From contig NZ_CP070353.1 in the NCBI RefSeq assembly GCF_016919405.1, positions 3,622,501 to 3,686,500 of the forward strand: 64,000 nt of DNA. The letters run 5' to 3'. Under the pieces are notes generated by a model. The model did no database searches and was not told the origin of the DNA. It worked only from the letters and a program-made list of their open reading frames with translations. The translations under genes and the position numbers were made by a program. This document shows positions 4,399 to 6,458 of the stretch, piece after piece. This stretch comes from Ensifer sp. PDNC004 (GTDB taxonomy: Bacteria; Pseudomonadota; Alphaproteobacteria; Rhizobiales; Rhizobiaceae). Each line of letters begins with the position of its first letter. Within the stretch, counting starts at the first letter, position 1.

Positions 4399-4980
4399 TC
4401 AGGCGGCCGGCTTGTCGATTGTGATCAGGAAGAGGACGGCAGAGGCCGCCGGTTCGATGGTGACGGCGGTTGCGCCCGTGAGCACCGCCGTGTCGCCCGC
4501 TGCGAGGTCGGCAGTGGTCTCGCCTGCGGTCAGCCGCGCGGCGCCGCCGTGGCAAAGCAGGAGGGTCGTGCCCCCCAGGCTTTCCGCCCTGTGCGGGTGG
4601 TCTATCGCCAGGCGCTGAACCGAGTGCGCGAGCTTTCCGCGCCGTGTCATGACATTGAGGTCGACGATCGGACCATCGACGAGCGTCGCCGAGGTTGCGA
4701 CGTCGGCAGGGAAGGGGAGCGGCGCCGTCTCGCCGGTCATCAAGGCGGGCGCGCGCCCCTCGATCATCAGCCGCATACCCTTGCCCTGAAGGATGGACAG
4801 CGTGCGGTCGATGCCGGGAAAGCTGGAGAAGGGGCCGTCGGTGGCAACGGTCGCCATGCTGGCGCGCCAGTCGAAATCGCCAAGCGAGGCCTTCTCGGGG
4901 AAAATGGCGATCTCCACCGTCTCGCCCCCGCCGTTCTTCCACGGCATGCGCTTGTAGTCTTTCGCGCGCAGGACCTTCAT
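4399..4980 (-). CDS. hutD: HutD/Ves family protein
   Basis: HutD proteins are small bicupin-like proteins of uncertain role found in histidine-utilisation operons; in Pseudomonas one is thought to limit hut activity. This one has 193 aa and the family hallmarks KRMPWKNGGGETVEIAIFP near the N-terminus, then DFDWRASMATVATDGPFSSFPGIDRTL. It is the last gene of the hutX-hutW-hutV-hutH2-hutD run, and its ATG overlaps the hutH2 stop by 4 bases (ATGA), so the two are probably translationally coupled. The C-terminal part is Ala/Thr-rich and less conserved. Confidence 0.9.
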   Translation of the reverse strand: MKVLRAKDYKRMPWKNGGGETVEIAIFPEKASLGDFDWRASMATVATDGPFSSFPGIDRTLSILQGKGMRLMIEGRAPALMTGETAPLPFPADVATSATLVDGPIVDLNVMTRRGKLAHSVQRLAIDHPHRAESLGGTTLLLCHGGAARLTAGETTADLAAGDTAVLTGATAVTIEPAASAVLFLITIDKPAA

Positions 4981-6458
4981 GGCGTGCCTCCTTCGATCAG
5001 CGTGCGCATGCGGGCGAAGTCGCCGTTGAGCGGCCGGTCGTCGGCATAGGTGGGAATGTCCGCACGGATGCGCCGGTAGAGCGCGCCGGTGCGGGCAGCG
5101 CGGCCACGCGGCTGCAGGTCATAGGCTTGCGTCGCGGCGAGCAGCTCGATCGAAAGGATCGTTTCGAGATTGTCGGCGATTGCGAGCGCCTTCCAGGCGG
5201 CGGGCGTCGCATGGGTGAGGATATCCTCCTGCAGCGCCGAGGTGATGCCGCCGTCAAGGCTTGCGGGTGCGGCCAGGCGCCGGTTTTCGGCGGCGAGCGA
5301 GGCGGCCGTGTATTGCGCGATCATGAAGCCGGAGGCAACGCCGCTGTCCCCGGCAAGGAAGGCCGGGAGGCGACTCACCAGCGGATTGACCAACCGGTCG
5401 ATGCGCCGCTCGGAAATGGCGGCGACTTCGGCAATGGCGACGGCCAGGCTGTCCATGGCAAGGCCGAGGGCTGCACCCACCGCATGGGCCTGCGAATGCA
5501 CTTCCGGCGCCTCAGGCGTGCCCGACACGGCCGGGTTGTCGGTGAGGCTTGCAAGCTCGCGGTCGACGACTTCGGCGACCTGGGCGAGCGCATCGCGCGC
5601 GGCCCCGTGCACGTGGGGCACAGCGCGAAGGCTCAAGGGATCCTGCGTGCGGGTGCCGGCAGTCTCGGCCAGCATCGGGCTATCGGCGAGATAGGCGCGT
5701 AGCGTTGCTCCGACCGCGTCCAATCCGTCCGAGCGACGAAGCGCCAGCGGGCCGGCGGCAAAGGCATTGGCCTGGCTGCCGAGGTTTTCATAGGTCATGG
5801 CGGCGGCGGCATCCGCCCAGTCGAAGAGATGCGTGGCGCGCGAAAGCGCAAGCGCCGCAAGGCCGGTGGCGCAGGGTGTGCCGTTGACGAGGCTCAGGCC
5901 CTCCTTAGCTTCGAGCCTGAGCGGCTTGAGGCCGATCCGCGCGAGCGCCTCGATGCCGCTGATCTTGTCCTTGCCGTCATCGACGATGCCGTGGCCGATC
6001 AGCACGAGGCCGATCGCCGCTGCATGGGTGAGATAACCGACGGAGCCGCGCGAGGGGATGTAGGGGATGAGGTTGGCGTTGAGCAGTGCCAGCAGCGCCT
6101 CGACTGTCTCGATGCGCACGCCGGAATAGCCGTGGGCGAAGTTAGCGATCTGGGCGGCCATCACCGCCCGGGCTTCGGGCCGGGCAAGCGGCTCGCCAAC
6201 GCCGCAGGAATGGCTGAGGATGATGTTGCGCGACAGCGCCTGCTGGTTCTCGCGGTCGATGACGACGTCGCAGAGCGCGCCGACGCCGGTGTTGATGCCG
6301 TAGCCGCGGATGCCGCGCTCGACCAGAGCGTCGACGACCCGGCGAGCGTGGACGATGCGCTGGCGTGCCGTAGCGGAAAGCGCGAGCGGTGCGCCATTGG
6401 CGACCGCTGCGATTTGCTTCCAGGTCAGCGGCGCATCGAGGACTACATTCTCACTCAT
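4977..6458 (-). CDS. hutH2: HutH-like protein lacking the MIO triad
   Basis: The fold is that of the histidine/phenylalanine ammonia-lyase family (493 aa). Histidine ammonia-lyase needs a 4-methylideneimidazole-5-one made from Ala-Ser-Gly in [12 protein letters not shown]. Here GSVG (138-141) is followed directly by YLTHAAAIGLVLIGHG: the three residues ASG are precisely missing and DLAPL is also changed. Tyr53 (YGINTGVG), the His of LSHSCGVG, the Asn of LVNGT, the Arg of QDPLSLR and the Glu of LQEDIL remain; the Tyr of DPYSLR is Leu. Start ATG 6458 lies inside the hutV stop (8-base overlap). Probably not a canonical deaminase; it may bind histidine-like ligands or catalyse something else. Confidence 0.85.
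   Translation of the reverse strand: MSENVVLDAPLTWKQIAAVANGAPLALSATARQRIVHARRVVDALVERGIRGYGINTGVGALCDVVIDRENQQALSRNIILSHSCGVGEPLARPEARAVMAAQIANFAHGYSGVRIETVEALLALLNANLIPYIPSRGSVGYLTHAAAIGLVLIGHGIVDDGKDKISGIEALARIGLKPLRLEAKEGLSLVNGTPCATGLAALALSRATHLFDWADAAAAMTYENLGSQANAFAAGPLALRRSDGLDAVGATLRAYLADSPMLAETAGTRTQDPLSLRAVPHVHGAARDALAQVAEVVDRELASLTDNPAVSGTPEAPEVHSQAHAVGAALGLAMDSLAVAIAEVAAISERRIDRLVNPLVSRLPAFLAGDSGVASGFMIAQYTAASLAAENRRLAAPASLDGGITSALQEDILTHATPAAWKALAIADNLETILSIELLAATQAYDLQPRGRAARTGALYRRIRADIPTYADDRPLNGDFARMRTLIEGGTP

Follow-up and report, generated by a model that had tools for sequence, protein, structure and literature searches.

MIO-less relatives of histidine ammonia-lyase in hut loci: a possible route from hercynine to urocanate

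A 64,000-nt stretch of the genome of Ensifer sp. PDNC004 (contig NZ_CP070353.1, positions 3,622,501 to 3,686,500; hereafter the window) holds a histidine-utilisation (hut) operon with a gene for a relative of histidine ammonia-lyase (HutH) that lacks the residue triad from which the MIO cofactor is made. What could such a protein do in this operon? An initial annotation of the window had offered a new enzyme activity, a ligand sensor or a regulator of hut uptake, and the first of these was found to be the best of the three, as a prediction. The gene is proposed to encode an active, MIO-independent lyase that would convert hercynine (histidine betaine) into urocanate and trimethylamine, and we give this prediction, in activity as in substrate, an even chance of being right.

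The gene, its operon and the shortened loop

The gene (4977..6458, minus strand) was translated as 493 codons without a stop, and its 493-aa product was matched to PF00221 over the full length of the profile (490 bits, profile positions 1–465 of 466), which bears out the membership in the histidine/aromatic ammonia-lyase family claimed initially. The product scored under the NCBIfam HutH cut-offs (TIGR01225, 455.5 against 539.15; PRK09367, 466.5 against 524).

The gene belongs to a tight cluster in the order hutX-hutW-hutV-[MIO-less lyase]-hutD, with hutF upstream, all on the minus strand. The ends of the lyase gene are shared with hutD (PF05962, 4399..4980) over 4 nt (ATGA) and with hutV, for an ABC ATPase (6451..7278), over 8 nt; HutV scored above the cut-off for the proV subfamily (betaine/proline/choline; 347 against 327 bits). 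The ChoW/ProW models were nearest to the ABC permease encoded by hutW (7271..8128), with scores under their cut-offs. Upstream lie hutX (8270..9301, with 9301 as the chosen start; the ORF list gives a longer frame to 9421), hutF for formimidoylglutamate deiminase (9340..10722; TIGR02022, 713 bits) and, divergent on the plus strand, hutC for the histidine-utilisation repressor (10850..11596; TIGR02018, 294 bits). Elsewhere in the window, two fused APH kinase and class-III aminotransferase paralogues (11712–14636 and 15865–19035) stand on either side of a family-3 substrate-binding protein (14736–15758), and the first fused gene adjoins hutC also in loci L090, L112 and L122.

HutX was identified as an OpuAC-type substrate-binding protein (PF04069, 208 bits). 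W65, W140 and W188, the three Trp of the ProX cage, were present in it and conserved in 45 of 45 proteins (44 neighbours and the window's own), which may simply reflect descent within the family. The gene order, HutD and the HutX-type transporter agree with the intact operon of the initial annotation; what had been called a histidine transporter is, by family, of the quaternary-amine OpuAC/ProX type, although extracts of PMC8871633 report a role for HutXWV in the uptake of histidine by Pseudomonas fluorescens.

The window protein (P0001) reads PYIPSRGSVGYLTHAAAIGLVLIGHG around the loop that forms MIO in HutH. The loop itself reads GSVGYLTHAAAIG (residues 138–149, GSVGYLTHAAAI; codons at 6012..6047, minus strand), and compared with HutH of the same genome (L001) GSVG is followed directly by YLTHAAAIG. 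The loop is net three residues shorter than in HutH and no A/S/T/C-S/C-G triad follows GSVG, which confirms the absence of the MIO triad. The narrower claim that exactly ASG had been deleted and DLAPL replaced is good for the number of residues lost; as to their identity, a MAFFT alignment of 163 sequences placed the gap over S-G-D with Ala replaced by Tyr, and the two descriptions are equally good, as the alignment does not choose between them.

The net three-residue deletion was common to all 240 unique GS[VA]GY proteins, a set sorted by that loop. Among 121 close proteins, which include the window's own twice (P0001 and P0002) and next to it independent ones at 96% identity, GSVGYL[TSV][HD] was found in 120, and the remaining one read CSVGYLTH. 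A sequencing error or a lone mutant was ruled out, since the loop is shared by these 240 unique and 120 of 121 close proteins. The Thr of YLTH varied in the clade (T, S, V, I, Q, G), so that the loop has no conserved X-S/T-G, and an alternative MIO-type cyclisation was rejected on the same ground.

Spread of the clade and its active-site residues

Loops were sorted in 317 unique full-length PF00221 proteins (240 GSVGY, 61 ASG, 10 CAD, 3 AAD and 1 AGD); one partial sequence had been dropped from 380 hits, and the fragment P0071 (CSVGYLTH) was placed in 'other'. For the tree, 229 rows were reduced to 213 by a motif and length filter, which removed the ergothionase relatives L193 and L194, and to 62 by thinning at 76% identity, and ergothionase (PDB 6s7j) was added as the 63rd. 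The 37 GSVGY rows formed one side of a branch with support 100/99. Two ergothionase-type rows were far from this clade, split at 100/99, on very long branches that make their exact place unsure.

Whole-genome search scores set the clade well apart from canonical HutH: 8 of 289 class genomes had a clade match above 540 bits, with other matches at 370 or less, and 23 of 398 phylum genomes had one above 620 bits, with others at 439 or less among the matches listed. A clade match was present in 19 of 121 family genomes. Loss of the reading frame in close relatives, named beforehand as a refuting result, was seen in one of these 19, a draft genome (G701:C21:15739-17099, L069) in which the match was split over two frames by either a frameshift or an assembly fault. 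In a named collection, the best 80 of 574 loci included Sinorhizobium meliloti, Agrobacterium, Paraburkholderia, Labrys and Thalassospira. The dN/dS ratio of the gene was about 0.10 (two relatives, 0.055/0.567 and 0.043/0.424). Judged from their sequences, the MIO-less HutH relatives are an old, conserved clade.

Residues are numbered here in what we take to be PpHAL numbering, mapped by motif on L001. HutH's Tyr53, His83, Asn195, Gln277, Arg283 and Glu414 were each present in 240 of 240 GSVGY proteins and in the window protein; the initial annotation had rightly listed Tyr53, the Asn of NGT, the Arg of DPxSLR and the QED motif, and His83 and Gln277 are kept as well. Two replacements that it did not mention were found. 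Tyr280 was Leu in 239 of 240 GSVGY proteins, the window protein included, and Phe329 was Ala in 223 and Pro in 16 (together 239 of 240; Ala in the window protein). A new Tyr occupied the V389 site (local number of L001; Y383 of P0001) in 240 of 240. Both Tyr280 and Phe329 were present in all 61 unique ASG proteins. The exceptions were L206 (GSVGYLGPEGH), which has both Tyr280 and Phe329, and L205, which has Val at 280; a universal rule that loss of the triad brings Leu280 fails at these two, and Leu280 also occurs in the AAD (three) and AGD (one) proteins.

According to excerpts of PMC11432326, Tyr52 and Glu411 coordinate the carboxylic and amino groups of the substrate, and Asn, Gln and Arg bond the ammonium and anchor the carboxylate, with the Asn195 position bonding the substrate ammonium. 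The same excerpts list His82, Tyr52, Asn194 and Glu411 as required for activity; Tyr277, they suggest, may assist Glu411, and Phe325 may stabilise the cationic intermediate. Set beside the clade pattern, these roles indicate that the substrate-holding residues, Asn195 included, are kept, the changes falling on the loop, Tyr280 and Phe329.

Other PF00221 groups without ASG were also observed. A GSIGAADLAHL type was seen in L195, L197 and L085 (a second copy), two of the three with HutV/HutW-like genes about 4–5 kb away, and L196 reads GSIGAGDLVPM. L206 and L221 (GSVGYLGPEGH), in which Tyr280 is kept, have a HisPQJ-type transporter alongside.

Neighbouring genes and companion lyases

Neighbours were surveyed for 116 unique clade proteins with at least 10 kb of context each neighbour being named after the single reference protein that was its best BLAST hit. 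One or more of the genes hutC, F, I, U, G, D and H were found within 6.5 kb in 104 of 116 loci, and the other 12 had no hut gene. The nearby hydratases scanned (n = 3) were HutU (945–986 bits, cut-off 375); within 6.5 kb of 120 clade loci, thiourocanate hydratase was the best hit in none and ErtD in one. The hutH gene adjoins the MIO-less lyase gene in L080, L082, L106, L107 and L109.

The commonest transporter was the family-3 amino-acid type (52 of 116), followed by HutX/OpuAC (41) and BCCT (2), and none of the three was found in 21, a count that can hide distant homologues because names were best BLAST hits to single references. The initial annotation had suggested looking in homologues for the deletion together with HutXWV and HutD: the deletion is in 240 of 240 proteins, and the HutX-type transporter is near 41 of the 116. 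The BCCT protein matched the NCBIfam BCCT models strongly but under their cut-offs (328 against 650 and 303 against 407.55). A motif was matched in 36 of 56 family-3 binding proteins, all 36 with an Asp at the alpha-amine site that is presumably HisJ's alpha-amine-binding Asp161; the 20 unmatched proteins were not judged. The one family-3 binding protein compared with the PDB was nearest to octopine- and nopaline-binding proteins. Family-3 transporters would suit free histidine at least as well as hercynine, and their binding proteins were no help as support for the hercynine reading.

Some clade members lie in other surroundings. L071–L073 (family f39; GSVGYIVH/GSVGYITH, 48–52% identical to the window protein) have no hut genes nearby, and the neighbours scanned in L071 were MacA/MacB/NodT-like efflux genes, an FGGY kinase and a PhyH-family protein. 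In L139 (7058–11957) and L190 (8995–12389), clade members without hut genes stand beside a Phosphonate-bd domain protein and an FA_desaturase-family protein.

Three PF00221 proteins were found in the window's own genome: HutH (with hutI and hutG, contig C1), the window protein (C2) and L003 (C2, 85.8 kb), whose loop is GSMGCADIG, without ASG, and whose best PDB match was ergothionase. L003 stands outside the window in an ergothioneine-degradation cluster (G000:C2 ~85.8–93.2 kb; L111 9307–16675) with ErtD and thiourocanate hydratase, both above their NCBIfam cut-offs (800 against 600 and 1058 against 930). The presence of this separate ergothionase-class gene with its two companions disfavours ergothioneine as the substrate of the window protein. 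The genome has exactly two urocanase-family genes, HutU and thiourocanate hydratase. HutH is present and the ergothionase-class lyase is paired with the latter, so that HutU alone is left for a third product of this kind. No match to EgtD (TIGR03438) was found in the genome, which speaks against hercynine synthesis by the host itself.

A PF00221 protein of at least 596 bits (HutH-scoring) was present in 44 of 45 genomes that carry the MIO-less lyase, the exception being G572. In G572, and likewise in G329, the order is hutU-BCCT-[MIO-less lyase]-hutI-hutG on one strand. The three PF00221 proteins of G572 are the clade member, an AAD-class protein and an ASG protein in which residue 414 is Gln; none is a HutH orthologue, and the MIO-less lyase gene therefore stands in HutH's place in the hut cluster. 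The ASG protein shares 76% identity with L199, an additional copy in G504, a genome that also has HutH, and 33–37% with the two HutH compared; it may act as a histidase.

The predicted reaction, its alternatives and known systems

The initial annotation had held known members of the family to depend on MIO, which is too wide a statement, because ergothionase (PDB 6s7j) has the same fold without the MIO cofactor (excerpts of PMC13405746). With that enzyme as precedent, elimination of trimethylamine need not use MIO, since a quaternary ammonium is a good leaving group. By the same logic, a hut cluster with plain HutU would point to the reaction of hercynine to urocanate and trimethylamine.

In the proposed mechanism, HutXWV would import the betaine, an N-alpha-trimethylated histidine and most likely hercynine. 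Its carboxylate would be held by Arg283 and Gln277 as in HutH, its imidazole would be placed by His83 and Glu414, presumably their role in HutH, and its beta-proton would be taken by Tyr53, after which the already quaternary ammonium could leave without the MIO electrophile. PMC11432326, in the excerpts used, assigns Glu414 to the carboxylic and amino groups and not to the imidazole, which counts against the role proposed for it. Room for the trimethylammonium would be made by the loss of the MIO loop together with Tyr280 to Leu and Phe329 to Ala or Pro, and the clade-invariant Tyr pair (Y142 and Y383 of P0001) could form a cation-pi wall. The urocanate would then be degraded to glutamate by HutU, HutI, HutF and HutG.

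For hercynine speak, by our interpretation, the residue pattern, Leu280 as in ergothionase, the hut neighbours, the quaternary-amine transporters of the HutX and BCCT types, the G572 cluster and HutU as the hydratase left; the growth of Pseudomonas fluorescens SBW25 on histidine without hutH1 (excerpts of PMC8871633) fits as well. Against it count the family-3 transporters as the commonest type, the 21 of 116 loci without any of the three transporters and the 12 without a hut gene, the retained Asn195, Tyr in place of ergothionase's Lys, the L206 exception, the part of HutXWV in histidine uptake and the published label of PA5093, to which we return below.

The most serious alternative, though an unlikely one, is a MIO-free lyase for another substrate with a good leaving group, such as a partly methylated histidine, a ring-modified histidine betaine or another aromatic betaine. 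Its residue pattern would be the same, and L071–L073 without hut genes, the FA_desaturase-family and Phosphonate-bd neighbours of L139 and L190 and the frequency of family-3 transporters would suit it, but His83 and Glu414 in 240 of 240 proteins and hut genes in 104 of 116 loci point to urocanate as the product. That the protein is a catalytically dead sensor of histidine or urocanate, regulating uptake via HutXWV or the hut regulon, seems rather improbable. The overlap of the gene with both its neighbours in the window, hutV and hutD, the HutH-scoring protein in 44 of 45 genomes and the dispensability of hutH1 on histidine (excerpts of PMC8871633) could be read in this way; yet none of the six HutH active-site residues varies in the 240 proteins, which leaves the initial sensor and regulator options with little support, the gene occupies HutH's place in the G572 operon, and the type of the neighbouring transporter differs among lineages.

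The active sites of histidine ammonia-lyases (HALs) are built from several subunits, and a partner subunit could form mixed tetramers with HutH and tune it. We consider this very improbable: the loci with an adjoining hutH and the PF00221 proteins of at least 596 bits in 44 of 45 genomes are in its favour, but G572 has no HutH orthologue, hutH of the window's genome is on another contig (C1 against C2), and the changes at 280 and 329 are expected to spoil a mixed site. Hardly credible is an ordinary histidase that uses another electrophile or needs none. It would account for the retained active-site residues, and it is opposed by a loop without X-Ser-Gly in which the YLTH Thr varies, by the loss of Tyr280 and Phe329, by redundancy with HutH in 44 of 45 genomes and by the practically total loss of activity in a MIO-less Ser-to-Ala mutant of PAL (PMC3903478, in excerpt).

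In fungi and some bacteria, hercynine is the betaine from which ergothioneine is made. If the hercynine reading is right, the products of a gene group that databases call 'histidine ammonia-lyase' release trimethylamine and let hercynine into the hut pathway. Taken more broadly, a view we hold tentatively and at somewhat less than even confidence, it would mean that histidine utilisation has a whole entry branch that has gone unnoticed. In many Proteobacteria, genes of hut operons now annotated as coding for a spare histidase would encode a MIO-free trimethylamine-lyase that acts on histidine betaine and is supplied by transporters of the betaine type (HutXWV, BCCT). The superfamily would then have lost MIO on two or more occasions, in every case with a change of the leaving group to trimethylamine, and Tyr280 to Leu would be the mark that these losses share. 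This would test why MIO is needed, perhaps only with a poor leaving group. HutXWV and hutH1 would gain a natural substrate, which may explain the growth of Pseudomonas hutH1 mutants on histidine (excerpts of PMC8871633). Even with the wrong substrate, it looks risky to let automated pipelines call these genes histidases.

The literature searched, a limited selection of papers, yielded no biochemical work on a member of the clade and no report of a hercynine lyase or a MIO-less HutH.

Among described systems, a locus of Pseudomonas fluorescens SBW25 is comparable in gene order: hutH1 lies beside hutXWV, between hutU and hutH (excerpts of PMC8871633), which is the position of the GSVGY genes in L082, L106, L107 and L109. 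HutH1 is described there as a histidase that is dispensable for growth on histidine, and the excerpts of the SBW25 hutH1 literature searched hold no mention of a missing triad. In L079, the order is hutG-hutI-[MIO-less lyase]-hutV. By this order PA5093 would be the lyase and PA5091 hutG. In excerpts of PMC12772324, PA5093 is labelled 'hutG' and the hutG mutant grows poorly on histidine and on urocanate, which suggests that this label or the numbering clashes with the L079 order; if PA5093 is the MIO-less lyase, a lyase acting upstream of urocanate does not explain this growth defect.

EgtU, an ergothioneine ABC importer of the quaternary-amine class like HutX, carries a histidine betaine by cation-pi contacts; its cage is of Tyr/Phe whereas that of HutX is of Trp, and hercynine shifts the melting point of EgtU little (PMC9732360, in excerpt). 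Compared with HutH (PpHAL, 1b8f; TaHAL, 7tqr), the window protein is without the ASG triad and has Leu for Tyr280 and Ala for Phe329. In a phmmer search it scored 156 bits against 6s7j and 254–278 bits against HALs, ergothionase rows being the very long branches of the tree.

The MIO-free trimethylamine-lyase ergothionase of Treponema denticola (6s7j/6s7q) shares with the window protein the fold and the lack of the MIO triad, at 26% identity, and Leu at the Tyr280 site is common to 6s7j, 10 of 10 CAD-class proteins and the window protein. The ergothionase loop is one residue shorter than that of HutH, whereas the window protein's is three shorter. At the V389 site, 6s7j and 10 of 10 CAD-class proteins have Lys, as do the AAD and AGD proteins, in contrast to Tyr in 240 of 240 GSVGY proteins, and Asn195, conserved in the GSVGY clade, is Ser in the ergothionase/CAD class; catalysis in the clade would for these reasons not be identical to that of ergothionase. 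All nine CAD/ergothionase-class loci examined hold homologues of thiourocanate hydratase and ErtD, whereas the window has hut genes instead.
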